NCBI GenBank assembly: GCA_004010935.1
Contig: CP026511.1
Location: 1 to 64,000 of the forward strand
Length of the DNA stretch: 64,000 bases
Origin: Pseudomonadaceae bacterium SI-3
GTDB lineage: Bacteria; Pseudomonadota; Gammaproteobacteria; Pseudomonadales; Pseudomonadaceae
Reading direction: 5' to 3'
Below the pieces are notes generated by a model, which saw only the letters and a program-made list of their open reading frames with translations, made no database searches and was not told the origin of the DNA. The position numbers and the translations under genes are program-made. Position 1 is the first letter of the stretch; the number at the start of each line of letters is the position of its first letter. Shown one piece after another: positions 2,712 to 25,309 of the stretch.

Positions 2712-6235
<3,524 letters not shown>

Positions 6236-6670: not shown

Positions 6671-6702
6671 CCCCCGGCAGATGCGGATCTGTTGGGGGTT
6701 TT
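6671..6702. terminator. Bidirectional-looking intrinsic terminator
   Basis: CCCCCGGCAGAT (6671-6682) pairs with ATCTGTTGGGGG (6687-6698), including two G-T pairs. It is followed by TTTT and preceded by an A-rich run. No gene on either strand obviously ends here. Confidence 0.7.
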
Positions 6703-6824
6703 GCGTATTGAACTATGGCATTTGGTGCGACAGCTAGCGGTGTGGCAGCACATTGCGGTGTCGCTACCTTGTTACAATCGGCGCATCACACTCCCCCTCA
6801 AAGAGCGCGAGCAATTTTATGAAT

Positions 6825-6842
6825 CGCAGGTAATCACCTGCG
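6825..6842. promoter_or_regulatory. Palindrome just before hsdM, candidate operator
   Basis: CGCAGGT-AATC-ACCTGCG is a perfect 7+7 inverted repeat, extended outwards by GAAT and ATTC with one extra base. It lies 9 bases before ATG 6851 and 42 before ATG 6884, a fitting place for a controller binding site or a translation-blocking hairpin. Function is inferred. Confidence 0.4.
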
Positions 6843-6883
6843 CATTCATCATGGCAATTTCGAAACAAGGCACGTCGTTGACT

Positions 6884-9147
6884 ATGGATTATCAGGAACT
6901 CAAGCAGCTCGAATCCGACCTCTGGGAGGCTGCTGATCAGCTACGGGCAAACTCCAAACTCACCGCCAGCGAATACTCGATGCCTGTGTTGGGGCTGATT
7001 TTTCTAAGGCACGCCACGACTCGTTTTTATGCATTGCTCGAAGAAGTAGAAAACAGTATTCCTACTCGGGCTACTGGTCAGCTGCGTGAAGACCGCATCA
7101 AATTGGGGTTTCAGGGTAAAGCGGCAATCTACCTGCCGGAAATCGCCCGCTACGAATACCTCGCTAGTTTGCCTGCCAGCGAAAACATCGCAGCAGCAAT
7201 CCATGACGCTATGCAGGCGATTGAAGACAGTGTCACCGACCAGGACGGCAATAAGCTGCTGGCCGGTGCCCTGCCCAAAAATTATCACGGGCTAGAGCGC
7301 GACCTACTACCTGACCTGATCAAGATTTTTAACCGCCCCGCTCTGCAAAATGCCAGCGGCGATGTGTTCGGCGGATCTATGAATACTTCCTTAATCAGTT
7401 TGCCCAGAGCGGTGCTCAGGAAGGCGGTGAGTTCTTCACGCCACCAAGCTTGGTGCGGATGATCGTCAACGTGATCGAGCCTGACCACGGAACCGTGCTT
7501 GATCCAGCATGTGGTTCGGCGGGCATGTTCGTACAGACTGGCCACTTCATGGAGGACGTGCGGCACAAGCTTACCCATGATGCGGACATCACTTTCTACG
7601 GTCAGGAGAAAGCCGAGGTCAACAGCAAGCTGGCGCGTTTGAACCTCGCGGTACATGGTCTAGAAGGCAAAATCCTGCTGGGCAACACCTTCTATGAAGA
7701 CCAGCATCAGCTGGTTGGGCAGTGTGACTTCGTCATGGCTAACCCGCCGTTTAACGTTGATGGTGTGCAGGTTACGAAGATCAAAAGTCAGGTTGGAACT
7801 CTCGAAGACAAGCCACCCAAGCGTCTGCCTTTTGGTTTGCCTGGCACCGCTGGCAAGAGCCGAGCCAAAGACTCCACCGAGACCATTTCGAATGGCAACA
7901 GCCTGTGGATTCAGTATTTTTACAGTTACCTAAATGCCACTGGCAGGGCCGGATTCGTCATGGCGGCCAGTGCCTCGGATGCTGGCAATAAAGACAGAGA
8001 CATTCGCCAGCAACTGGTGGAGACCGGCCATGTGGACGTGATGATGTCCATCGGGCCAAAGTTTTTCTATACCCGCAGTCTCCCCTGCACTTTGTGGTTT
8101 TACGACAAGAGTAAGCCGAAGGAGCGCTTGGACGGCGTGCTGATGATTGATGCACGAAATGTCTACACGGTGGTCTCGGCACGTTCACATGTATTCACTG
8201 AAGAACAGCTAAGCAACCTGTCGGCAATTACGTGGCTGTATCGTGGTCAGACTGAGCGTTTTGTTGAGTTACTAGGTCACTACCAGCAGCAACTGACTGA
8301 GCATCTGCAACAGTTGCCCGAACGGATTGGCGCTGACAATGAGCAGATCAGCTTGCTAGATAAGGCCCTAAGCGAACTTGCCGCCGCTACCTTACAAGCG
8401 ACCCCTGTTGCCATTGTCCGTACCAAATTGGGTGAAGACCATGGTTTGATGGATGAGCTGTTGGCCAGCTTTCGTGATGAGTTGAAGCAGGTACAAACGG
8501 AAAGCCATGCATGGCAACAGCTCATAGATAAGGCGCTGGAAGAGGCTCAGTCGTTGTTGGGTGAGTTGTCTGCACCAGCCAACTTAGCTGCTCGAAAAAC
8601 AGCGCAGGGTAAGGCAGAAGCGGGCAACGCCGTCTTCAAGGCGGGCCTTGCCGCGCTTGAGGCCCGTCACAAGGCCTGGCTTAAGCTACTGGATATGGCA
8701 GACAAGCAACTACGCAGCCGTCAATGGGCCTCTGCTGGCTATACCTTTGCTTACGAAGATTGCCGTGAGGTGAAAAAAGCCCTACTCCACCGCGATTTGA
8801 AGAAACGAGAGCAACCCACGGTGCGTGACTTGGCCGTTGAGGCTTTCAAGCGTGCTGGTTACTTCATCGCTCAGGGACACTGGCTGCTGAGCCGTTTCCC
8901 CGATGGCGTTTATGCCGATGTGCCGGGTTTGTGCGCCGTGGTCAGCCGCGGGACTATCGCAGCCAACGATTATTCGCTGACACCGGGGCGCTACGTAGGA
9001 GTGGCGCTTGGCGTTGAAGACGACGACGAAGGTCAGGCTTTCCGCGAAAGGATGAAGGAAATCCACAGCGAGCTGGCGGAGTTGAATGACAAAGCTGTCG
9101 GGTTGGCTGATCGTATTCAGCTGGCTTTTTCAGAGTTTGCAGAATGA
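6884..9147 (+). pseudogene. hsdM: Type I restriction-modification DNA methyltransferase HsdM, frameshifted
   Basis: HsdM methylates adenine in the type I recognition site using AdoMet, in a complex with HsdS. The reading frame is broken by an apparent one-base loss at about 7371-7373. The first frame carries the HsdM N-terminal helical domain (LEADLW-like LESDLWEAADQLRA, then EYSMPVLGLIFLRHA), then drifts out of frame and stops at 7462. The second frame continues directly with RIYEYFLNQFAQ, AdoMet motif DPACGSAGMF and catalytic NPPF. Joined, it would be about 754 residues, longer than classic HsdM because of a C-terminal extension. ATG 6884 fits the family start; ATG 6851 is an alternative. 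hsdS overlaps by ATGA. No homopolymer lies at the break, so a real mutation or a read error are both possible. Confidence 0.85.
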
Positions 9148-13300: not shown

Positions 13301-13665
13301 AATTGCTTCAGGTGCATGATTCGCTGGATCAGGAAGAGCAGCGCTTTATCCGTGAAGGCTTTTCGACGGAGAAAGAACTCGCCGTCTATGACCTGCTCGG
13401 CAAGGACAAATCAGCGCTGAGTAAAGGCGACATTGGCAAGTTGAAGAAGGTTGCCATGGATCTTCTATCTGTCGTTGGAGCTCGCCGAGCTGAAATGGGC
13501 AATCTGCGTGACAAGGCATCCACACAGGCACAGCTCAAAACCGTGATCATCGACCACATGCTGGTTGGCATGCCTGATGAGTTTTCAAATGAAGACATCG
13601 AGGCACGAGCTGAAGTTGTTTTCCGTTTTTTACAGCAGGGATCAGCGGGACAGGTTCTTCACTGA
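10327..13665 (+). CDS. hsdR: Type I restriction endonuclease HsdR
   Basis: HsdR is the ATP-dependent translocase and nuclease of the type I complex. The 1112-residue protein starts MGKASYSEDKNIQ and contains a PD-(D/E)xK nuclease core (CDLVGF near residue 153, then FIELKR near 168), Walker A HTQGSGKS (about 321), the DEAD-like box SDEVHRTQYG (about 423), motif III GFTGTPL, and a second helicase lobe with RVNRV. It is full length and intact. If hsdM is truly broken while hsdR is intact, the cell would be protected only if HsdR cannot assemble without HsdM, which is the case for known type I enzymes. Confidence 0.96.
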   Translation: MGKASYSEDKNIQEPAAKLLADELGWRSVYAMDEVHGLPSDPDSTLGRKDRSEVVLVRELDKALARLNPKVSPIKLAQARELLLDADPTKTLLQHNEEKWRMLRDGISLKAPSGRPEEDVHVKVVEFAEGKQDDNDFLVVRELWVKIGPYTKRCDLVGFVNGLPLVFIELKRHDKGLKAAFDENYIDYRGRPDDSHPGTISQLFHYNALVIVSNGLDARYGGITSSWDHFYRWKRLAEEDADPAPKPDTAPLKPILPILLRGMCSKNRLLDIVENYTLFDHSEEHTAKVIARNHQYLGVNRAIDNLREGGPNVLAGKLGVFWHTQGSGKSYSMVFFCQKIHRKISARYTFVLLTDRKELDNQIFSTFVGCGISTNSRDKAAGAEGLERLLKDENRRYVFSLIHKFRKRVTEPWSERDDIIVVSDEVHRTQYGRLATQMRMALSRAKFIGFTGTPLIDGLEKSETERVFGSYVSVYDFQRAVADGATLPLYYESRGEKLHIVDEALNRRIEDRIDQARADGDLTEEQEEKLYRELARDYPVFTSDTHLNDVATDFVEHFHQRWRLMEAPPRAGQPINYGGNAKALFVCIDKVTCVKMAIRIKSKWAEKIQALEIKLLDDQAPFITKGKPFSEGLRRDAALIEWMKTTQIHPIFSSDQNEIQDFSQEGIDVKPYREVISKGIDSRDIEECFKDGKHPFRVAIVCAMWLTGFDVKSLATLYLDKPMKGHTLMQAIARVNRVAAHKKNGLIIDYNGMLKSLRKALSVYGQGEQGNSQDDGTDPLLDEEQALVEYAAAIFKVQAHLTSIGFELDDLAKATNGEERWQALLDAQNAISVSAEAKKTFQVLAEDVADRYRGLFPRDELHHYEPQESAIAAIYNMLQKPKGKVDVSSIMQELRGLVDNALEVVPLDTLNEKPTQPYNLSGIDFERLRAEFAKSSQQQAVTLSLQERIQARIEAMLMANPTRVDLYKRYEEIIEEYNRDKDKVEIQKVFDQLLQVHDSLDQEEQRFIREGFSTEKELAVYDLLGKDKSALSKGDIGKLKKVAMDLLSVVGARRAEMGNLRDKASTQAQLKTVIIDHMLVGMPDEFSNEDIEARAEVVFRFLQQGSAGQVLH

Positions 13666-13900
13666 GGCCAATATGAAGGCTTTGGGGTTCCTTCTCAGCT
13701 GTAGGTATCCGCGCTTGGAGTTCCTCGCGACGCAACCACACCACGGCTCTGCGTGGAGGCGATATGCTACCCCCCGCCTATTCTGTATTCCGGGTTAATG
13801 GTTCTGGGCCTGCCTTAGGCCTGAAAGGAGCCTTGACGTTGAACGTTTGTGAAGGGAGACAGTGCTTTTGATCGGACGGGATTACACGTTTTGTGGAACA

Positions 13901-13922
13901 GTGACACTACCGGTGGTGTCAC
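13901..13922. promoter_or_regulatory. Palindrome abutting hicA, candidate HicB operator
   Basis: Positions 13901-13922 form a 22-base inverted repeat, GTGACAC...GTGTCAC, with one mismatched pair. It ends at the base before the hicA ATG. HicB antitoxins with ribbon-helix-helix domains repress their own operon by binding palindromes, so this is the likely operator. Its position suggests a leaderless or very short-leader transcript. Confidence 0.55.
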
Positions 13923-14210
13923 ATGCATGCTAGGCTTGGCGAAACGATAGCCCAGCTCCAGGCTGCAAAATCCTCCATCCGTTGCGAGGAACTTGCGGCC
14001 TCTTTGCGCGACTTGGGCTTCGTTGTGCGTGCTGGCGAGGCAGGCCACAAGGTCGTGACGCATCCCGGTCTAAAGGGATTTTACTCGGCGGCCTATAACT
14101 GTGGTCATGGAAAGAACCCCGAGATAAAGCCAGCTTATATCGGGAAAATACTCCGCATTTTGCGGCAGTATGAGTCAGAACTCGACGAGTTCCTGAAGGA
14201 GCAAAAATGA
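13923..14210 (+). CDS. hicA: HicA-family mRNA interferase toxin
   Basis: HicA toxins are small double-stranded-RNA-binding-fold nucleases that cleave mRNA and halt growth. The 95-residue protein has the HicA core LRDLGFVVRAGEAGHKVVTH, with the conserved histidine after the Gly-rich turn, and the later NCGHGKNPEIKPAYI segment typical of this longer branch. It overlaps the next gene by 4 bases (ATGA), giving toxin-first order, as in classic hicAB. No clear ribosome site precedes it. Confidence 0.8.
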   Translation: MHARLGETIAQLQAAKSSIRCEELAASLRDLGFVVRAGEAGHKVVTHPGLKGFYSAAYNCGHGKNPEIKPAYIGKILRILRQYESELDEFLKEQK

Positions 14211-14698
14211 TCGATCCTCATGCTTATAGCATTGAAATTAGACGCGGAACCTATGAGGGTGAAGTCTGCTTTCAAGCGCGCGTGCTGGAGTTGCCGGATC
14301 TTTATGAATATGCCGACAGCTACGATGAAGCCTATGGCCTGGTCATCGAATCGATTGCAATGACAGCCGAGGCTCTCGCGGAGCAGGGCAAGCAGATTCC
14401 TGCGCCGTTCGAGCACGTCGAAGAGTTCAGTGGGCGAGTAACACTGCGCCTACCCAGGTCGTTGCATGCGTCGCTGGCGCGCCGTGCGGACTGCGAAGAT
14501 GTAAGCCTGAATGCGCTGATGGTTTCGATTTTGTCTGCCTATCGCGGTTTCGATCTGGGCATGCAGAACTCGCACGATGAATGGGAACGGCTGGTGCAAC
14601 CAATGCCATCTCCGATTCAGGTGGATGGTGTTTCCATGGCTCGGCGAGAACTGCCGAAACTGAGTGTTGTTGGCTGGAACGTTGCGGACGCAGCATGA
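14207..14698 (+). CDS. hicB: HicB-family antitoxin with C-terminal extension
   Basis: HicB neutralises HicA and represses the operon. Of 163 residues, about 1-70 form the partial RNase H-like HicB fold (EVCFQARVLELPDLYEYADS, EAYGLVIESI). About 81-120 form a ribbon-helix-helix DNA-binding domain (GRVTLRLPRSLHASLARRA, SLNALMVSIL). The remaining ~45 residues (from FDLGMQNSHDEW, rich in hydrophobics, ending KLSVVGWNVADAA) have no place in a minimal HicB. In operons with a SecB-like partner such tails can be the chaperone-addiction region. It overlaps the secB-like gene by ATGA. Confidence 0.85.
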   Translation: MIDPHAYSIEIRRGTYEGEVCFQARVLELPDLYEYADSYDEAYGLVIESIAMTAEALAEQGKQIPAPFEHVEEFSGRVTLRLPRSLHASLARRADCEDVSLNALMVSILSAYRGFDLGMQNSHDEWERLVQPMPSPIQVDGVSMARRELPKLSVVGWNVADAA

Positions 14699-15213
14699 AC
14701 CTTGAAGCACTCCAGCGGGCCAAAGATGGCCTGCAAATCCAAGATGTGTTCATGAAGGCCTCTAGCTCAAAGCTGGCCGAAGGTTTCGACCCTAAATTCG
14801 ATCCACGCCTAGAGAGCTTGCAGCTAGAGCTTCGTAATAACCCTAAGCGCTCCTACCTCATTGAAGGTGTCCACCAGGGCGAAAATATTGCGATCTTCCG
14901 AGTGGAGATGGAGCTGGGTGCCAGGCAGGTATGCCCCTTTGAGGGTGAGGAAGGCGAAGAAGCTCAGCCGGATGTAGTGGTGCAGATCGACGCTACTTTT
15001 ATGGCGGACTATGTCATCGCCAATCCTGAGCTGAAAGCGGATCGCGAAGCGTTGGATGCTTTTGCCGTCGCTAATGCGGGGTATCACGTCTGGCCGTATT
15101 GGCGTGAATATTTCTCCAGCCAAGTGTCGCGCATGAATTTGCCCAAAGTCATGCTTCCGATGATGCAGTTCACCAAAGCAAGCTCGGCCAACACTGCGAA
15201 AAAACCGGAGTAG
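14695..15213 (+). CDS. SecB-like chaperone of a toxin-antitoxin-chaperone operon
   Basis: SecB-like proteins in TAC operons bind a tail of the antitoxin, protecting it so that it can fold and block the toxin. The 172-residue product is acidic, and its C-terminal half matches the SecB core: the segment around YHVWPYWREYFSSQVSRM and PKVMLPMMQF aligns with SecB's PYARE...VSRG.FPQL.LAPVNF. It differs enough from SecB (longer N-terminus, Lys-rich C-tail, no export-SecB neighbours) to be a dedicated chaperone. ATG 14695 overlaps the hicB stop. Role is inferred from family and context. Confidence 0.8.
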   Translation: MNLEALQRAKDGLQIQDVFMKASSSKLAEGFDPKFDPRLESLQLELRNNPKRSYLIEGVHQGENIAIFRVEMELGARQVCPFEGEEGEEAQPDVVVQIDATFMADYVIANPELKADREALDAFAVANAGYHVWPYWREYFSSQVSRMNLPKVMLPMMQFTKASSANTAKKPE

Positions 15214-15729
15214 TGCTGGATTCGCTGATGTTGGCTTATGTGGTTTCAAGCTGAAACGGTGGGCTGATCAAAGCTCTACTGTCAGAGCCTTGATCTCCAG
15301 TCCTTCACAAAATCGCCCCACCGCTGTCAGTGAGCGCCAGAGTCTTACCGGCTCCCGCCGCCGCGAGCGCACCGGCAGCCATTTCACCCCGAGACGCAGT
15401 TGCCGGCGCCAGGCTTCCCCTTCGCGCAGCAAGCGAAACTTCCGCGCGGCGCCGGCCTCAACCAGTCCCTGCAAGGTGTCTTGTTCGGTGCCTTTTCATC
15501 GCCCTGCTCTCCATTAGCCAGTCACCGGGGGTCTGGTATAGCGCAGGGCAGGTGGTCGGTTTCCGCAGCAGGCCGAGCGATCACCGATCCTGGTGCAGGT
15601 GAGGGGACGGATTGAACCATAACGTCCTATTAAGCGCAGGGGGCAGGCAATCTGCATTACGACAGAATCGCGGTCGTCAAATGAGCCGAATCCCACTGTC
15701 TGAGGTGCCCTGGGCCCAGATTTACGATC
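15214..15729. other. Non-coding or degraded stretch
   Basis: No firm gene lies here. On the minus strand a frame from a TTG at 15474 to 15268 reads 68 residues (RLLREGEAWRRQLRLG, WLPVRSRR, WRSLTAV, ending IKALTVEL). This looks protein-like but lacks a good start, and an in-frame stop sits 24 bases upstream. It could be the remnant of a small accessory gene. The rest is GC-rich sequence without other signals. Confidence 0.4.
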
Positions 15730-16645: not shown

Positions 16646-17938
16646 TTAGTGGACGCTCATGCGCGCTTCTAGGAAGCGCCCATGCTCAGGGAACCGCTCT
16701 TCTAAGTTTCCTCGAATCATCTTCAGCTCTTGGGCGGTGGCCACCGCTTTGTCCCAGGCCGGTAGAAAGCTGAAACCCATAACCAAGGCGCGATGCTTCA
16801 AGCGCTTGTAGAGCGGCAAATCTCCCTGATAGGCCGCAAGCAGTAAGGCTTCCCTGAGGATGGTTTTTTGTGTTTCGCCAGAGCGGTAAAGTGCCAGGTC
16901 AGCAGCCTGCTCATAATGGCCTAGCGCCGTCTCTAGCTGGCCCGCAAGCACATGCCAGCGACCCTCCAGAAATTCGAGAAAGTAAGTGCTGACCGATTCT
17001 GGCTCGTGGATTGATATCTGGTGGCGGAATTGATCCAGGGCGAAGCGCGTTCGAGCCTGTTGGCCGACGGATTTATCGGTGGTGCGCTTTAACTGATCGT
17101 CAAGCACTAGCCCGTGGCAGACCATGTCACGCTTATGTGCCGATGCTTGAACGTTCAGTGCTGCCAGCTTTGCCCCGATATCGTCGGGCTGCACATCGCT
17201 GAGTACTTCACGCAGGATGCAGTCGCGCAGTTTCAGGTGTGCGGCAGCGGCCTCGTCGAAGACCGCTAGGGCTCGCGCAATGATGAGCCATTCCGTGAAT
17301 GCGGTGATGAGGCGCTCTCGGACGGTGAACGCACCCAACAGTGTTTTCTGTAGCAGGCTGATGCGTTGCAGCGTGGGCAGCTGTTTCCCCTGACGCCAAC
17401 GCTGCATCAGTTCTCGCCCGTTCTTGTTCTCACCATTGGCGTCTGGATACAGCTGATGACCTAATCGATGGGGTTCAATTCCGAGCTCATGCTCCAACCA
17501 TGAAAAGATGACCGCCACTGGATGTTGCTGGTCGTTGAGCAGCATGGCGATAGGGGGACTCGCTACGGCCCTTTGCATTTGCAGCAAGAAGGATGCAGCA
17601 AAAGGGGCAAACAAATGGGTAATGAGGGCGGGTAGGCTTTCCTGGCGGGTAAGGGCATCCAGCTGAACGGTTTTGATCAGCTTTATATAGCCTTGGTGAA
17701 AGCTCTTCTCCGCGCTCATTACGAAAGCAGTGAAGTCAGGATTGCTCCTGGCCAGCAGGGGCGCTTCGATCAGTTCTTGGCGCAATTGCGTAATCAACTG
17801 CCAGTCAAAATCACCTTGCCTGGCCAACTGATCGACATGGCGGTTACTGGCTTTGGTATCGAGTGCCTTGGCGAGTAGGCGGTAGCATTCACCTAGGCGA
17901 GGGTATGGTGGCAGTGGGGTGTTTTCTGCTTTCGGCAT
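16646..17938 (-). CDS. Hypothetical protein, helical, 430 residues
   Basis: I do not recognise this family. The protein is rich in Leu, Ala and Gln and predicted largely helical. The C-terminal third (GRWHVLAGQLETALGHYEQAADLALYR) resembles tetratricopeptide helices. No nuclease, kinase or membrane motif is evident. It starts MPKAENTPLPPYPRLGECYRLL. A 61-residue gene ends 63 bases upstream on the same strand. Its place beside tns genes marks it as accessory cargo. Confidence 0.75.
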   Translation of the reverse strand: MPKAENTPLPPYPRLGECYRLLAKALDTKASNRHVDQLARQGDFDWQLITQLRQELIEAPLLARSNPDFTAFVMSAEKSFHQGYIKLIKTVQLDALTRQESLPALITHLFAPFAASFLLQMQRAVASPPIAMLLNDQQHPVAVIFSWLEHELGIEPHRLGHQLYPDANGENKNGRELMQRWRQGKQLPTLQRISLLQKTLLGAFTVRERLITAFTEWLIIARALAVFDEAAAAHLKLRDCILREVLSDVQPDDIGAKLAALNVQASAHKRDMVCHGLVLDDQLKRTTDKSVGQQARTRFALDQFRHQISIHEPESVSTYFLEFLEGRWHVLAGQLETALGHYEQAADLALYRSGETQKTILREALLLAAYQGDLPLYKRLKHRALVMGFSFLPAWDKAVATAQELKMIRGNLEERFPEHGRFLEARMSVH

Positions 17939-18001
17939 TGCAGATGTCTCTCTTCATCCGTGTTAGCTGCCCGCTGCTAGCAACGGGCAGTACTCTGGCG
18001 A

Positions 18002-18187
18002 TCAGGCTTTTGGCCCCTGCCCACGGTTCCCACCGGATTTGTGGCCGTGTATTTTGCTGGGCAAGTTTCCGCCGGGAAACGGATTGTTGGTCGCTGGTCG
18101 GGAATTACCTTTCCCTGCTGTGTCAGAGGATTTTCCGCTACTGCGCTTGGCCATTTGCGCGGTTGTTTTGAGCGTGTGACGAATCAT
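18002..18187 (-). CDS. Small Gly/Lys-rich protein with KSGG-RG motif
   Basis: A 61-residue basic, low-complexity protein with no membrane segment. Its end, NLPSKIHGHKSGGNRGQG, closely matches NLPSTTGNKSGGGRGN in a 45-residue protein at 30621. AGGAGATGCAGC precedes ATG 18187, a good ribosome site. Two copies of such an unusual motif within one island support a real gene family. Function unknown. Confidence 0.6.
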   Translation of the reverse strand: MIRHTLKTTAQMAKRSSGKSSDTAGKGNSRPATNNPFPGGNLPSKIHGHKSGGNRGQGPKA

Positions 18188-18632
18188 GCTGCATCTCCTG
18201 TGTGAGTAGCGGATCGCTACATGGCCTAAGGTACGGAGACGCTTGGCAGAAGGCCCGCGCGCAACTGGTCAACTTTTTCTGTGGGGTGAAGGCTGTTGGA
18301 CAATTTTCAGCCATCACTCAGCTAAACCCCTTCCCAAGCGCTGCCATCCTCTCCCTGGAGACCTTTTCGAGGACGCGCCGCCGATTCCGACAGGAGATTA
18401 ATGCAAGTGAATCCTCACTAGGCGTTGCCAGATGCAGCCAGCTTTCGAACGCACCGGTCTACTCTGCACGCGTGACCAACTCTTGGGCCAGGGTTGAGTC
18501 AGAAGGTAGTAGTAGCAATGCGCTGGAATAGCGTTTCACCGACATGGCTAGCGTGAGCAGCTCTTCGGCTCCGGGCCCTCTTTCAAGGAAGTTTCGCCCA
18601 GGCGCGGAAATTACACGCAGTGCTGTGGGCAT
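18188..18632. other. Intergenic region, no supported gene
   Basis: The stretch lies between the minus-strand small gene and the HTH gene. A + strand frame (18202-18531) has no ribosome site and an atypical composition, so it was not called. No strong repeat or terminator is evident. Confidence 0.5.
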
Positions 18633-19682
18633 TCAGATGCCGAGGCCGTCTTGTATCTTTAAACGCTTAATAAAATTCGTCTCCTCAGTCGCGGTGGTTC
18701 TAAGGTATTCCTCATAACTGCGTGTGAATCTGGCTTGGGGGAGCTCAGGGGTATAACCAAGGCCCAAGACCCGCAGATCATCTGGACGCTCGGGGGCCGC
18801 CCCAGTCCACGTCAATTGATGCGCTGCAAAACGCCCGTGCCCTGATTCGACCTCCGCTAGCAATTTCGCGCTATCGTTTTCGAAGAACACCGAAAGTGTC
18901 AGCCGCTCATGAAAGTCTCGAAAATACGCGAGGCGCAACCAGCCGGTGTCTTCATGCAAGGGGCTTCCGCCAAGCCAAAGCGACAGCTCGGCTAGATGCA
19001 GCAACACCTCACTGCGCTCCGGAAACACCATCCACACCTTACGCGCCATGTGGCGGCGCGCGAGAGCCAGTTCATAGAGATCCATCGCCACCCCGCTGGC
19101 TTGCCGCGAGTCCCCTCCGACTTTGCAGAACAGCACGGCTTGAGGATCGCCTTGGCTGTCCAGCACCGCAGCGGTGGGCGCTTGAAACACATTGGCGCTG
19201 GCGGATTTCAGCACCGCTCCGTCAGGTGCTTCGAAAAACTCCAAGGGTGTTGCGGCTAGGTAGCTAAACAGATCCCTAACCAACCCCTTTGCGGTACGCC
19301 GTTTTTCAGCGCGGGCATTGATGGCGTGTGCCAGCATGGGGCTCTGACTGCGTAACTCTGCGAGTCGCTCTGACAGCGCTGAAATACTGATCTGGTTTAC
19401 TAGGGCTCCAGACAGAAGCTCCTCTGCCAGCAGCGGCGCAATACGTGAAATCTTGTCGAGCAGCTCCATGTGCACGTAACTGCATCGAACCTGCAACTGA
19501 TCAGCTTCGGGTAGGCAGCGCTCTAGGTAGCGCCCGGCAGAAACCATACGGCTGAGCGTTTTCTGATTCATCCCCAGAGCTTGGGCGACGCTGGCCATTG
19601 TGGCGTCTTGCCCTTGCTGCTCGAAGGCCCGCTTAGCGTTGAGATAGGTATCAAACCAGCGGCTATCGACTGTCCGAGCCAT
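18633..19682 (-). CDS. HTH-containing protein divergent from tnsA
   Basis: A 349-residue protein whose N-terminus looks DNA-binding: ATMASVAQALGMNQKTLSRMVSAGRYLE (about 28-55) fits a helix-turn-helix with a recognition helix. The remaining ~290 residues match no domain I know; a middle segment (VLFCKVGGDSRQASGVAMDLYELALARRHMA) has a mixed alpha/beta pattern. It is transcribed away from tnsA across 123 bases that contain a good promoter and an inverted repeat, so it may regulate transposition. Its start has AAGGAGAGCC upstream. Confidence 0.75.
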   Translation of the reverse strand: MARTVDSRWFDTYLNAKRAFEQQGQDATMASVAQALGMNQKTLSRMVSAGRYLERCLPEADQLQVRCSYVHMELLDKISRIAPLLAEELLSGALVNQISISALSERLAELRSQSPMLAHAINARAEKRRTAKGLVRDLFSYLAATPLEFFEAPDGAVLKSASANVFQAPTAAVLDSQGDPQAVLFCKVGGDSRQASGVAMDLYELALARRHMARKVWMVFPERSEVLLHLAELSLWLGGSPLHEDTGWLRLAYFRDFHERLTLSVFFENDSAKLLAEVESGHGRFAAHQLTWTGAAPERPDDLRVLGLGYTPELPQARFTRSYEEYLRTTATEETNFIKRLKIQDGLGI

Positions 19683-19805: not shown

Positions 19806-20522
19806 ATGCATCGCGGTCTTGAGGCTGTACCTGTAGCGCGCAACGTGTCGAAACGCACACGCCGGGGGCGGCCGTGCCATGTGTTTATGTCCGCCAAGGC
19901 AGGCGGGCTCATCTCGATGGAGAGTTATGAGGAGTACAAGCGCGCTGTGCTGCTAGAGCTTGATCCACGAGTGGTGTGTTTTAGCGAGCAGCCTTGGACG
20001 ATGGAAGTGAATAGCGGGGAAATTCGTCCGACACGGGATGCATTCAAGCCGGTCACCGCTGATATGCGCTTCTACACGCCTGATTTCACCGTGCGCCTAG
20101 CTGGTGGGCGCATTCTGATTGTCGAAGTGAAGAAGGCCCTCCCCTCCGCTGAGCGCTCCGAGAAGTACAACTTAGTTAAGTGCCGCTGCCAGGAAAACGG
20201 GTTTGAGTTCCTGATGCTTGAAGGAGCTCATCTCACCGCGGCGCTCCTGCGCAACTGCGAATACTTGGTTAGAACCTCGGCTGAATACCTGAAGAAAACG
20301 CTGCCGGAGATGCTTGAACAGTTGTTGGAACTGTCTCAGCAGCGCCCCCGTTGGACTTACACAGATCTCGCCCAATTAGCGCCACACGGCGGTTTTGGCG
20401 TTTTTATCGGAATTGCATACGGAATTTTTCAAGCGGATTTACAACGCGATCTGTTGTCTGGCCAGGGAGTGATTACACCCGCCTTGGGAGAATTGACTCA
20501 CCTAGAGCTCGGTTTTGTATGA
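19806..20522 (+). CDS. tnsA: TnsA-type transposon endonuclease
   Basis: TnsA cuts the 5' ends of Tn7-like elements, turning TnsB-only replicative insertion into cut-and-paste. The 238 residues show the restriction-enzyme-like core: E in SMESYEEYKRA (about 40), D in FYTPDFTV (about 94) and the VEVKKA motif (about 108-113). The C-terminal half holds the small domain that contacts TnsC. GGAGAAG lies before ATG 19806. It overlaps tnsB by 4 bases and leads a four-gene operon. Confidence 0.9.
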   Translation: MHRGLEAVPVARNVSKRTRRGRPCHVFMSAKAGGLISMESYEEYKRAVLLELDPRVVCFSEQPWTMEVNSGEIRPTRDAFKPVTADMRFYTPDFTVRLAGGRILIVEVKKALPSAERSEKYNLVKCRCQENGFEFLMLEGAHLTAALLRNCEYLVRTSAEYLKKTLPEMLEQLLELSQQRPRWTYTDLAQLAPHGGFGVFIGIAYGIFQADLQRDLLSGQGVITPALGELTHLELGFV

Positions 20523-22429
20523 ACAATAGGCTGCTCAAACTCGGCGATCTGGTTAACGACAACAGCCAGTTATGCAACGTGCATGACATTCGCTTGCAGA
20601 CTGATCAGATCGTGCTGGAAGGTGCCGCAGGCAATCTCGTTTTCTATGGTGTCAGCGAGTTCAACAACCGCGTTGCCCAAGGCCTTACCAAACCGGTGTT
20701 CTCACAGCGCTCGACCATTGAAGAGGGGCCATCCAGACAGCTCTCTTTGACCGAAAAAGATGCGCTTAAAGCACGGTTGGACGTGCTCGCGAAAGTGAAG
20801 CCACTTCGCGAGTTAGGAGTGCCGTGGCAAGAAATTGCACCCATGTTAGGCGTGAACGCATCCAGGATGCGCACAATTCAGCGCTGGTACTCAAAGTACA
20901 CCAGTGTTGTTAATAAGCAGTTGGTCGCACCGCTCTACTCGGCTCGCGGTAATCGAGGGTCGAAGCTTTCCGAAGTAACCGAGCAAGCACTGCAAGAGAC
21001 CCTCCTTGAGTTCTTCAAGGAGTCTGATCGCTTCTGCGTTACCGCGATTACCGAGCTGGTGAACACCCGGGCTAGAGATATCTGCGCGGAGTTGAGGTTG
21101 CCATTTACAGGGGTGTCGAGGCGCTCAGTCTCACGCGCCATTCGTAGGATTGGCAACTTTGAATCAGTAAAGGGCCGATTGGATTCACGCACAGCCCGGC
21201 AGATTCTGCATGCCGCACTGGAGTTGTTGTGTATCGAGGCGCCATTCGAACGGGTCGAATATGACTCGACGGTGCTAAACGTACACATCGTCAATGAGCA
21301 CGGCGTTGTGATCGGCAAACCCACGCTTTACCTGCTGATCGATTGTGCTACCGGCGCCATCATCGCTTTCTACCTGACGATTCAAGCTGAATCTGAAGAG
21401 ACCTTTCTCAGGCTGCTTGAGATGGCGTTCATGCCCCGGGATGAGCTCTTCTTGCAGCGTTATGGCGTCAAGCAAGCACTCACTCCACCTGCGCTGTGGC
21501 ACAAGATGTGCGGCGACAACAGTGCGGCGCATCATGGCCAAGGGATGTATCACGCGCTCTGGTACTTAGGAGTGGCAAATGAGTTTTCGCAAGCTGGAAA
21601 ACCTCAGTCGCACCCGTATGTGGAGCGCACGCATGGATCGACGAAAACCGGCCTGATCAAAAAGCTCTGCGGTGCCAACTTGTCGGAAGAAATTCTGGAG
21701 AAAAATCCGGAAGGGCGAGCGGTGCACGAAGCCGGATTGACCTTGCCTCAGCTGGAAAATCTGGTGGCGAGGTGGATCTGCGATGTTTACATGAATAAAC
21801 CACTGGAGCGCCTGACCTATCGCTTTGGATACCGCTGCTCGCCGCGTCAGGCGATGAATGAGCTGACGAAAATCTTTCCACTGGTGCCACCGCCGACCCC
21901 CGAAGAGTTTCGAGAGGCCTGCTTGCAATATCGCAGCAAGAAAGTTGTGCTGACCAGCCAAGGAGTTGTGTTCGAGACGTTCCGGTACAACAGCCAAGAG
22001 CTTTATGAGCTGTATCTGGCGGCACCGCGAAAATCCAAAGTGGAAATTCGCTGGCACCCGCTGGATGTCAGTTCAATCTCAGTCGTTTCGCCACTCGATC
22101 AGAAAGCCATGATTACGGTGCCGAACAAGCAGCGCAACCTGCCACCGATGAGTTTCGGTGAAGCGAAACAGATTCGCCGCCAACTATACAAGTCGGATGC
22201 CGAGCTAACCGAGGAGGCGTATCACCAGGCTGCTGTTGAGCTCTATCGAGACATTCACGCGCTGAACAAAGCGGCCAAGGTCGCCAATCGCAAGCGGGGT
22301 GCTAGGTCGGCGGACAAGCAGCAGCAAACGAAAGCACTTCAGGCGAACAAAGCCACCAGAGCACCAGACACGGTTGCTTCTTCAATTCTTGACTTGCAGG
22401 CGCTGACACCTGCGCCGACGCGCAGCTGA
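20519..22429 (+). CDS. tnsB: TnsB-type DDE transposase
   Basis: TnsB binds element ends and catalyses 3'-end cutting and strand transfer. The 636-residue product has N-terminal HTH-like DNA-binding regions (VPWQEIAPMLGVNASRMRTIQRW near residue 105). Its RNase H-type catalytic core has D in VEYDSTVLNVH (about 248), D in CGDNSAAHHG (about 331) and E in HPYVERTHGS (about 368). A Mu-transposase-like barrel and a basic C-tail follow. ATG 20519 overlaps tnsA; the frame is open further upstream, but that part is a shadow of tnsA. All three catalytic residues are present. Confidence 0.93.
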   Translation: MNNRLLKLGDLVNDNSQLCNVHDIRLQTDQIVLEGAAGNLVFYGVSEFNNRVAQGLTKPVFSQRSTIEEGPSRQLSLTEKDALKARLDVLAKVKPLRELGVPWQEIAPMLGVNASRMRTIQRWYSKYTSVVNKQLVAPLYSARGNRGSKLSEVTEQALQETLLEFFKESDRFCVTAITELVNTRARDICAELRLPFTGVSRRSVSRAIRRIGNFESVKGRLDSRTARQILHAALELLCIEAPFERVEYDSTVLNVHIVNEHGVVIGKPTLYLLIDCATGAIIAFYLTIQAESEETFLRLLEMAFMPRDELFLQRYGVKQALTPPALWHKMCGDNSAAHHGQGMYHALWYLGVANEFSQAGKPQSHPYVERTHGSTKTGLIKKLCGANLSEEILEKNPEGRAVHEAGLTLPQLENLVARWICDVYMNKPLERLTYRFGYRCSPRQAMNELTKIFPLVPPPTPEEFREACLQYRSKKVVLTSQGVVFETFRYNSQELYELYLAAPRKSKVEIRWHPLDVSSISVVSPLDQKAMITVPNKQRNLPPMSFGEAKQIRRQLYKSDAELTEEAYHQAAVELYRDIHALNKAAKVANRKRGARSADKQQQTKALQANKATRAPDTVASSILDLQALTPAPTRS

Positions 22430-22439
22430 GGTATTCCAG

Positions 22440-23432
22440 GTGTTCCAGCCACTATCGACACAGCGAGTCATGCACCGGGAGTTCCAGAAGGCCTATGACT
22501 TTGCACGAGGTATCGTCGAGCGGTCTGTAGAGGGGGAGCGGCTGATCGCCATGCTCCTGGGCGTGCCTCGGCAAGGGAAATCGCTGATCAGCGAGCTGCT
22601 GCTGGCGGACTTTCCTTCCTGCTCGGTTCAGGGTCTGCAAGTGATCCCAATCGTTCGCGTCGTAACGCCAACAAGGCCGACGAAGAAGGCTATGGCAGAA
22701 GCAATCATTGACGCACTAGATAAGCGTCGCTACGGGCGCTATACCGCCGAGCAGGCAACGGCGCGAGCCAGCTTCCTGCTGAAGTCAGCCAAGGTGCGAG
22801 TCCTTCTCTTCGATGAGATTCAGCATGTGGTGGAGCTCAACACCGCTAGGAGCTGGTATGAAGTCGCCGACTGGCTCAAGACCTTGTCTGACGGGCTTAA
22901 CCTGTCGCTGCTGTTGGTCGGTTTGCCGGCGGCGCGAGAGATCCTGTCAGTCAACCACCAGCTGCGAGACCGCGCTACCTCTCCCCACATCATCTACCCA
23001 TACAACTGGAATCACCCAGCGGATATCAAGGAGTTCTGTCGCTGCTTGCTGTCTGTTTCGGAGGTACTGGCCCAGCAGGGCTACACACTGCCATCTATGA
23101 CGGATCTTGACCTGGTCTGGCGTTGTTATGCCGCCACCCATGGGCGTTACGGAATGGTAGTCAAGCTGTTTGAAGAGGCGAGGCACCAAGCACAGAAAGC
23201 CAAGGTCAAGACCATCACGATGCAGGCACTCGCCGATGCTTTCCAGGTGAGCGTAGGCGATGAAGGGGAAGTGGGAAATCCGTTCGAATCTGATGCTGAG
23301 CTTAGCGATAGCGTTTTGGTGCAGCGCTATGTCGCTTTGCTGAATGAATCCGGGTTGAAGGCACCCCGGCAGAAAAGAGTTCAGAAAAGCACATCCGGCG
23401 ATGCCTGCGTTGATGGGGGCGGCCAGCGATGA
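22440..23432 (+). CDS. tnsC: TnsC-type AAA+ transposition regulator
   Basis: TnsC is the ATP-dependent matchmaker between target-bound TniQ/TnsD and the transposase. The 330 residues contain Walker A GVPRQGKS (about 41-48) and Walker B VLLFDEIQH (about 121-129), followed by AAA+ sensor segments. It is much shorter than Tn7 TnsC and nearer TniB-sized. GTG 22440 gives the longest form; ATG 22470 is an alternative. Its end overlaps tniQ by 4 bases. Confidence 0.88.
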   Translation: MFQPLSTQRVMHREFQKAYDFARGIVERSVEGERLIAMLLGVPRQGKSLISELLLADFPSCSVQGLQVIPIVRVVTPTRPTKKAMAEAIIDALDKRRYGRYTAEQATARASFLLKSAKVRVLLFDEIQHVVELNTARSWYEVADWLKTLSDGLNLSLLLVGLPAAREILSVNHQLRDRATSPHIIYPYNWNHPADIKEFCRCLLSVSEVLAQQGYTLPSMTDLDLVWRCYAATHGRYGMVVKLFEEARHQAQKAKVKTITMQALADAFQVSVGDEGEVGNPFESDAELSDSVLVQRYVALLNESGLKAPRQKRVQKSTSGDACVDGGGQR

Positions 23433-25309
23433 TGCAGATTCACCTAGAACCATTCACTGATGAGGCACTACACAGTTACCTGCTGCGGTTGGCTCAAGGT
23501 TATGGCCTTGAGAGCAGTAAGCAGTTGCTGAGAGCGGTAAATCTAAAGCCTCGTCTTTGTTATGACCAAGAGCAGCTTAGGGCGTTGGGGGAAGAGTTTG
23601 GTCTGAGCCTCGACGTGCTAACGGCGATGAGCCCAAGCCATGCTGCCAAGGCGCCGATCTCTGACATGAAGTATCAGCGATCAGTATGCAGCCCTATTTG
23701 CCCCTGCTGCATCCGCGAAGCTCCCTATGTTAAAGCCATGTGGGATCACGAGCTGATCACGGCATGTCCGAAGCATGGTGTGCTTCTGATGGGTGCCTGC
23801 CCCGGGTGTAGTGAGCCGATTACGCGTGACCGGAAGTCGATCCTTCACTGCCAGCATTGCAATTTTCCTTTCGCTGATACCAAGACGAGTTCCGCAGAGG
23901 ACTTCGACCTGGCCATTTCTGCGTTGATTGCTGGAGCAGACTGTGGGGCCAGAGGCCGACTCCCAGGTGCTCTCCAGTGTGGCAGCCCACCGCTAGATAT
24001 CGCAGCATTCCTGACCTACCTGGCGAGTCATATACAGCCCAGTGCACTACCTGTTCGGACAGGAAGGGAGCCGCGTCCCAAAACGCTCCAGGAGTCGCGC
24101 GCTGTGCTGATGCGCATCTGGTCTGTGCTCGGGCAGTGGCCAATGGCGATTGAGGCCTTTATTGAGGCACGGATTGGCGAGGGTGAGGGTCGCTCTGTTC
24201 ATCAGCGTGTAGGACGGTGGTTGGCTGTCTTTTATAAGCAGTTTGATCACGAAGTCTACGGCTTCTTTGCAGAGGTGACTGGACGTGTTTTGGCATCCCA
24301 TTTTGATGGCTGTTTAAGGCCCAGCATCCGAGCAAGGATGCTCGGCGCTGATGGCGTCGATGCTCTGCAATGGTTCTCAGCTGCGGAAGCCGCTCGGCTA
24401 CTAGGAGTGGCGCCAGACATTCTTACGAACCTGGTCATCACGCAGCAGGTTCAGGGAAGAATTCACCAAGAGGGCACAAATCGGATCATTGCCATACGAC
24501 GTGCGACTCTCGATCAAATTGCTGCGCAGCGAGCGTCTTATCTCTCGGCAACGGAAGCACGCCAGCGTCTGAACGTTTCGAAAAATTTCTTTGAGCGGTT
24601 TATCCAGGCCGGTGGCTTGCGTCGCTACAAGCGCAACGAGCGTGCGGTATTGGTAGCCGGCGAGTTCCGAGTTGAAGACGTCGATCAAGTGATCCAGCAG
24701 CTGGCGGGGGGTGCCCGGCAAAAGTCCAAGGCATCCGTATTGATCGGCCTACAAGACATTTCAGCTAAGCATGGCATCTCCAACAGCAAGATCGTCGGTG
24801 TATTGCAGGACATCCTCCATGGAACCATTCGCCCCGTGGCGCATGTCAGCTCACTGCCTGGACTCGCCGGTTTGCAATTCGACAAAGCCGAGATCGAGCA
24901 GCGGGTGCGGGACAATGACCCTGACGTCGCACTGAGCGTTGACGACCTGGCCCAGGTGTCCGGCTGGAAAGCCGGCGTAATCAAAAAGTGGATACAAGGT
25001 GGGTATCTGAAGGCGGTTGAAGAGCGACACGGAAAAGCCAAGCGCGATGTTATCCCGGTCTCTGCGCTAATCCAGTTTCTGCTGACTTACAGCCCGACTG
25101 CTGAGCTCTCGAAGCAGCTGAACACTAAAACTCAGTACATGATGCAGTCGTGGCGCCCGGCGCGTATCGAGACGGTTGTGCCGCCGCAGGATATGGGCGG
25201 CGGGCAGCGCGGATTGCTGGTACGAACTGCTGATCTCGCACGTGCAGCGCAGTTACGACAACCCACCATCGCTGAGCTGGCGGAGCAGTTGGAGGCTTCC
25301 TCATGCTGA
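23429..25309 (+). CDS. tniQ: TniQ/TnsD-family target-selection protein
   Basis: TniQ/TnsD proteins recognise the insertion site and recruit TnsC. The N-terminal ~150 residues form the TniQ domain: LEPFTDEALHSYLLRLA start and a zinc-ribbon series CPCC, CPKH, CPGC, CQHC. The C-terminal ~330 residues contain at least three helix-turn-helix-like units (FSAAEAARLLGVAPDILTNL; LSATEARQRLNVSKNFFERF; LSVDDLAQVSGWKAGVIKKW). These could read a specific attachment site. At 626 residues it is larger than the short TniQ used with CRISPR guides, in line with sequence-specific targeting. Confidence 0.88.
   Translation: MMQIHLEPFTDEALHSYLLRLAQGYGLESSKQLLRAVNLKPRLCYDQEQLRALGEEFGLSLDVLTAMSPSHAAKAPISDMKYQRSVCSPICPCCIREAPYVKAMWDHELITACPKHGVLLMGACPGCSEPITRDRKSILHCQHCNFPFADTKTSSAEDFDLAISALIAGADCGARGRLPGALQCGSPPLDIAAFLTYLASHIQPSALPVRTGREPRPKTLQESRAVLMRIWSVLGQWPMAIEAFIEARIGEGEGRSVHQRVGRWLAVFYKQFDHEVYGFFAEVTGRVLASHFDGCLRPSIRARMLGADGVDALQWFSAAEAARLLGVAPDILTNLVITQQVQGRIHQEGTNRIIAIRRATLDQIAAQRASYLSATEARQRLNVSKNFFERFIQAGGLRRYKRNERAVLVAGEFRVEDVDQVIQQLAGGARQKSKASVLIGLQDISAKHGISNSKIVGVLQDILHGTIRPVAHVSSLPGLAGLQFDKAEIEQRVRDNDPDVALSVDDLAQVSGWKAGVIKKWIQGGYLKAVEERHGKAKRDVIPVSALIQFLLTYSPTAELSKQLNTKTQYMMQSWRPARIETVVPPQDMGGGQRGLLVRTADLARAAQLRQPTIAELAEQLEASSC

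Follow-up and report, generated by a model that had tools for sequence, protein, structure and literature searches.

The hicA–hicB–SecB-like operon at 13901–15213 of the window (the entire 64 000 nucleotide stretch of DNA analysed here) is very probably a HicAB-type toxin–antitoxin–chaperone (TAC) module. The gene order, the folds, the co-occurrence of a long HicB tail with the chaperone gene and the conserved site at the hicA start were computed in this work; HicA activity, HicB binding, dependence on the chaperone, release of the toxin by titration and phage defence would be expected of the module by analogy with tested relatives. The initial annotation described the HicAB version of such systems as little studied, which has to be qualified: HicAB-type TACs are a kind already known, and the operon thus belongs to a known kind, whose representative Mmet-TAC of Methylomonas was tested in Escherichia coli in 2016 (PMC5105189).

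Organization of the operon and identity of its products

The genes lie on the + strand in the order hicA, hicB, SecB-like gene and are joined by two ATGA overlaps, at 14207–14210 and 14695–14698 (Table 1). The ORF coordinates place genes and overlaps where the initial annotation had put them, and its identification of the products as HicA, HicB and a SecB-like chaperone agrees with the domain, sequence and structure searches. The Shine–Dalgarno matches of hicA and the SecB-like gene reach only 4/6, compared with 5/6 for hicB.

Table 1. Features of the operon, in coordinates of the window.
Feature	Positions	Strand	Description
Palindromic operator candidate	13901..13922		GTGACACTACC/GGTGGTGTCAC; core TGACAC-N8-GTGTCA at 13902-13921; hicA start codon directly after
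hicA	13923..14210	+	Toxin, 95 aa; HicA-type, conserved Gly-His (G41 H42), further conserved C-x-H-G-x-N-P block
Shine-Dalgarno-like AGGAGC	14197..14202	+	5/6 match, 4 nt before hicB ATG
hicB	14207..14698	+	Antitoxin, 163 aa; partial RNase-H-like domain ~1-60, ribbon-helix-helix type DNA-binding domain ~73-118, disordered C-terminal tail
HicB C-terminal tail	14561..14695	+	Residues 119-163; putative chaperone-addiction (ChAD) region; ends RRELPKLSVVGWNVADAA
SecB-like chaperone gene	14695..15213	+	172 aa; SecB fold, best match Rv1957 of M. tuberculosis TAC

The toxin scores 16.6 bits (E 0.0085) against PF07927, below the cut-off of 27, and 15 of the 18 aligned HicA members match this family at E 0.01 or better (best 9.3e-9). 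PDB entry 1whz matches HicA over the same stretch (E 5.4e-4). The G41-H42 pair is invariant in all 18 aligned members; the conserved His of HicA proteins is catalytic. The antitoxin matches PF05534 above the cut-off (E 1.4e-7), and the first rows of a Foldseek search with the predicted HicB structure are HicB structures (E 2.3e-3). A sequence search against PDB gave no match for this protein.

Structure prediction for the third protein had been named beforehand as the analysis that could refute its assignment. It gave a SecB fold (pLDDT 89), and the best match among solved structures was Rv1957, which is also matched by sequence (E 0.0017). Of the chaperone residues that were mapped, L108, D147, P156 and L157 are replaced by M103, S142, K151 and V152, respectively. 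The protein does not score as an export SecB (preprotein translocase subunit), reaching 14.8 bits (E 0.027) against a cut-off of 26 for Pfam SecB (PF02556) and 13.8 against 180 for the NCBIfam equivalog; another, strong SecB is encoded elsewhere in the host genome. Pfam SecB at E 0.01 likewise detects only 2 of 51 relatives. The protein also matches the PADLOC model PD-T4-9_C (E 1.2e-4).

A long HicB tail accompanies the chaperone

HicB ORFs were drawn from the loci of the SecB-like scan and from HicB searches of 369 genomes of the class and 398 genomes of the phylum, those with identical last 60 residues being counted once. The 39 rows of HicBs unlinked to a SecB-like gene were reduced to 32 by omitting one cut ORF, one weak match and five ORFs followed by less than 600 bases, whose C-termini were short as well. 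We found a long tail in 22/22 HicBs encoded upstream of a SecB-like gene and in 0/32 of the others, with 54–67 residues past the SLN (or SMN/RLN) motif in all 22 linked proteins and 10–36 in all 32 unlinked ones, which are mostly distant (profile scores below 90 bits, vs 186–252 bits). Clustering at 60% identity left 11 linked and 14 unlinked groups. The sole near unlinked HicB (L095, 199 bits) was rejected as a natural chaperone-free control because its locus is decayed: hicA is reduced to a remnant, and both the tail and SecB are gone.

The tails were also inspected for a C-terminal Ala or Gly, which ends 15/22 linked HicBs, 32/47 linked MqsAs and 150/783 other ORFs. In these related sequences the contrast between linked and unlinked proteins was 15/22 vs 10/32 for HicB (p 0.012) and 32/47 vs 6/12 for MqsA (p 0.32), and we retained this feature as a hint only and not as a degron signature.

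A tail motif common to part of the HicB and MqsA antitoxins

Part of the linked HicB tails bear a block such as KPQLRVVSSSDL. A matrix made from ten HicB blocks chosen by eye was scored on the last 60 residues of MqsA proteins, including 47 linked ORFs (46 loci; four of the ORFs are fragments). Eleven of these 47 exceeded the 99% level of shuffled tails (0.47 expected), and therefore most linked MqsA tails are without the motif at this threshold. When sequences were grouped at 60% identity, 5/24 linked MqsAs were above it. The controls gave 0/12 unlinked MqsA, 0/32 unlinked HicB and 5/1194 other ORFs. A reciprocal matrix from nine MqsA blocks, scored on the 22 HicB tails, reached p <0.01 for five of them (L010, L012, L013, L049 and L052); this test is not independent, because its MqsA blocks had been found with the HicB matrix. 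On the MqsA-derived motif the HicB tail of the window (ELPKLSVVGWNVA) scored no better than shuffles (p ~0.49) and that of its relative P0024 (ELPALRVVSWPTR) gave p ~0.01. On the basis of these scores, some HicB and some MqsA antitoxins from SecB-linked systems appear to have a PxLRVVxSS-like tail motif in common, of which the tail encoded in the window may be at most a diverged version.

A conserved palindromic site at the hicA start

The palindrome does end exactly at the hicA start codon, as the initial annotation held: its arms, 13901–13911 and 13912–13922, pair at 10 of 11 positions without a spacer, and the resulting 22 bp end at 13922, directly before the ATG at 13923. Palindromes of equal quality are not uncommon, with 7 in the 64-kb window; TGACAC-N8-GTGTCA occurs there once even at one mismatch (the mean for shuffles is 0.13), and the 4.84-Mb host genome holds a single perfect copy. 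With at most one mismatch and a spacing of exactly eight bases, the site was present near hicA in 22/22 HicAB–SecB operons, as against 0/32 unlinked hicB loci and 0/47 SecB-linked mqsA ORFs, of which those of L030 and L057 lie at a contig end with no upstream sequence and one of L034 has 400 bases. Fifteen of the 20 site columns are identical in at least 20 of the 22 rows. The start codon follows 1–2 bases past the site in 20/22 operons; it is 13 bases away in L020, and in L027 the intact site lies further upstream and a degenerate copy adjoins the start. In L039 the hicA start was placed by similarity because the hicA frame is broken. This conservation of a putative operator in every linked operon lends comparative support to the autoregulation that the initial annotation read from the palindrome.

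The same annotation also proposed a near-leaderless message, for which the relatives speak more clearly than the window. The site centre is exactly TATATATG in 10/22 operons and contains TATA in 13/22, and a TTGACA stands 17 bp upstream in four operons, L011 and the closely related trio L017, L021 and L039; this TATA within the operator together with the upstream TTGACA predicts, for these four, a transcript start a few bases from the ATG. In the window the centre is TACCGGTG, without TATA, and no sigma-70-like promoter was found at the operator. A GGAAC two bases before the TGACAC site was seen in 8/22 HicAB–SecB operons, including the window (13895–13899); read as an ECF-type −35 element it would place the transcript start inside hicA, and this reading was rejected. 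In other systems HicB binds to palindromes that overlap the −10 box (PMC11594946), and E. coli hicAB has a second, HicB-repressed promoter whose transcript gives antitoxin only (PMC10865869, PMC11594946). By analogy, a transcript start at the hicA ATG combined with the good Shine–Dalgarno sequence of hicB would fit this antitoxin-only logic.

Relatives and an implied change of partner

A collection of species genomes was scanned with the SecB-like alignment, and the best 80 of 102 confirmed stretches were taken. Among these 80, the upstream partners were hicA and hicB in 20, MqsRA-type genes in 40, and neither (or a cut sequence) in 20. With the window (counted twice), seven loci from plasmids and phages and two further loci added, the numbers become 22, 47 and 22. 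Six of the last group were inspected: L060 has a LysR regulator upstream of the SecB-like gene, L076 an Mrr-like gene, and L068, L070, L071 and L077 encode a 119–140 aa protein followed by an HTH antitoxin-like gene and the SecB-like gene. These four loci (~3150–4000) form a further TAC-like arrangement, with an antitoxin-like gene of the HTH_26/HTH_3 type and a toxin-position protein without a convincing Pfam match.

None of the 36 congeneric genomes searched (0/36) has the chaperone, which is present in 12/369 genomes of the class sample, its own genome included. Eleven plasmid and two phage records contain related chaperones, and all five plasmid loci and both phage loci inspected carry MqsRA-type modules; a nucleotide search of 13600–15300 in plasmids gave no match. 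The modules of the two phages, Klebsiella phage 2b LV-2017 (L007) and Escherichia phage PhiR70_1 (L008), are complete MqsRA–SecB sets located near repressor genes, and the three genes of the former are unannotated in the phage record.

In a tree of 91 chaperones (IQ-TREE; the bootstrap is not quite settled and the deep branches are weak), the chaperone of the window groups with L009 (100/100), and L052, a HicAB-linked chaperone from Methylococcales, clusters with four MqsRA-linked ones (99/95), of which three come from methanotroph genera. The HicAB label undergoes at least two changes on this tree, which implies that partners were exchanged at least once, in one direction or the other. Such a change fits the cross-rescue between the Mmet and Vcho chaperones described earlier (PMC5105189). 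In the literature surveyed we found no description of this operator, of a tail motif common to HicB and MqsA, or of a HicAB chaperone grouping with MqsRA chaperones.

Genomic neighbourhood

The operon lies beside genes for type I restriction and a group of Tn7-like transposition genes. The hsdM gene (6692–9147) is split over two overlapping frames, with HsdM_N in 6692–7462 and N6_Mtase in 7450–9147, and so may be frameshifted; the hsdS and hsdR genes that follow are open frames, and the hsdR genes of congeners are only distantly similar (best 46%), for which reason hsdR was rejected as a marker for locating an empty insertion site. The Tn7-like set (19806–25309) comprises TnsA-like (weak), Mu-transposase-like, TniB and TniQ genes. 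It is adjoined by two ORFs of 430 and 349 aa at 16646–19682 on the − strand, which had no Pfam match at 0.001.

Proposed mechanism and alternative readings

As a TAC module, the operon would work as follows. HicA would be a ribonuclease toxin that cleaves RNA once free; the N-terminal domain of HicB would block it, and the DNA-binding domain, seated on the palindrome next to the hicA ATG, would repress the operon. Its long disordered tail would render HicB prone to aggregation and degradation unless the dedicated SecB-like chaperone binds this tail. Loss of the chaperone, or its titration by phage proteins or misfolded clients, would then lead to degradation of HicB, release of HicA and derepression of the operon. 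Points that weigh against this reading are the Pfam scores of HicA and the SecB-like protein below the cut-offs, the detection of just 2 of 51 relatives by Pfam SecB, the mostly distant relationship of the unlinked HicBs, the shuffle-level motif score of the HicB tail, the four replaced chaperone residues and the negative search for a sigma-70-like promoter.

The strongest competing view contests the proposed role and not this mechanism: the module may mainly stabilize an accessory region (addiction) or serve a general stress response, with the chaperone as a folding aid only. We regard this as a real possibility, somewhat short of an even one, given that the operon lies beside a restriction locus and Tn7-like genes, was found in none of the 36 congeneric genomes searched, and has chaperone relatives on 11 plasmid and 2 phage records; what counts against it is that the chaperone-dependent CmdTAC and MqsRAC defend E. 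coli against phages (PMC11618068, PMC9519451). Decay of the whole module into a functionless relic is most improbable. Related loci have eroded (little of hicA and neither tail nor SecB are left in L095, and only a 54-residue hicA fragment was detected in L039) and the adjoining hsdM is split over two frames, yet the three frames of the operon are open, it has kept the Gly-His of HicA, the palindromic site and the conserved residues of SecB, and near-identical proteins (94–95%) exist in other database entries.

Chaperone-free HicAB pairs are common and function without a chaperone, so the SecB-like gene might be a mere passenger of an ordinary, chaperone-independent pair. This is very unlikely in view of the co-occurrence of tail and SecB (22/22 vs 0/32), the overlap of the genes and the identity of the best structural match as a TAC chaperone; moreover, the related Mmet-TAC needs its chaperone (PMC5105189). 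It is also unlikely that the palindrome acts not as a DNA operator but as an RNA hairpin that, within a longer transcript, masks the region around the hicA start. A 61-nt stretch of the window does fold, as RNA, into a hairpin with 9 or more pairs immediately ahead of the AUG, but the site is conserved as sequence (15/20 columns identical in at least 20/22 rows) and not as pairing, the folding energies of four loci are ordinary (z −0.29, −0.79, −1.87 and 0.23), and in other systems the palindromes to which HicB binds overlap the −10 box (PMC11594946). The two roles of the palindrome may coexist.

Returning to the TAC module, we tentatively propose, as something possible rather than probable, that chaperone and recognition tail form a cassette that moved between the unrelated HicB and MqsA families in Proteobacteria and left PxLRVVxSS behind, and that in the HicAB branch operator, −10 box and toxin start codon became fused in one conserved element, through which a chaperone-dependent HicB would gate a leaderless toxin message. 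Bordes et al. described addiction tails as highly variable and demonstrated in grafting experiments that addiction is transferable. The present comparison suggests that nature itself may have transferred addiction between antitoxins, because a motif recurs in some HicB and some MqsA tails and the chaperone of one HicAB operon clusters with those of MqsRA systems. TAC modules make a toxin depend on whether a chaperone is available, and two TACs act against phages. The shared tail motif offers concrete residues for mutation, and the start-codon site, present in 22/22 HicAB–SecB operons examined, is a target for studying how such operons keep from producing too much toxin.

Comparison with known systems

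We found no phage test of a HicAB-type TAC in the literature surveyed. Mmet-TAC of Methylomonas methanica MC09 (HicAB–SecB, Metme_2813/2812) has the same gene families as the window (PMC5105189), and its chaperone is required in E. coli (PMC5105189); chaperone need is described for both the Mycobacterium tuberculosis and the Mmet systems (PMC5105189, PMC6377645). By our reading, the translated Mmet-TAC primers (PMC5105189) imply that HicA begins with MSAKLRI... and HicB finishes with ...ALEKQYA, in both respects resembling L052. The 22-nt forward primer had no match in 151 genomes of the family of L052 (0/151), so that only the primer translations link L052 to Mmet-TAC. The latter probably represents another subfamily, as the chaperone of L052 groups with MqsRA-linked chaperones and not with that of the window.

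The M. tuberculosis TAC (Rv1955–1957, HigB1–HigA1–SecB-TA) resembles the operon in the chaperone fold, in the toxin–antitoxin–chaperone order and in part of the ChAD groove and contact residues, but has a HigBA toxin and antitoxin and a chaperone of only ~20% identity. The chaperones of MqsRA–SecB (MqsRAC) modules, for example on the Vibrio and Shewanella plasmids NZ_CP117056, NZ_AP025478 and NZ_CP050314, belong to the same family as that of the window (38–43% identity); their antitoxins are long, and part of them have the PxLRVVxSS-like tail motif found in some HicBs too, whereas toxin and antitoxin are unrelated to those of the window and the TGACAC-N8-GTGTCA site was not found (0/47 ORFs). 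MqsRAC defends E. coli against T2 and not T4, and extra chaperone inhibits this defence (PMC9519451). CmdTAC (PD-T4-9) of E. coli likewise has a SecB-like third component, but its toxin is an mRNA ADP-ribosyltransferase and its antitoxin is unrelated (PMC11618068); it defends E. coli against T-even phages, and for this system release by a phage capsid protein and degradation by ClpP have been shown (PMC11618068). Finally, the chaperone-free hicAB pairs of E. coli K-12, Burkholderia and Yersinia share with the window HicA, a partial RNase-H-like HicB and a palindromic operator in the promoter region (PMC10865869, PMC11594946); they differ in having no SecB gene, and the sampled HicBs without SecB have short C-termini.
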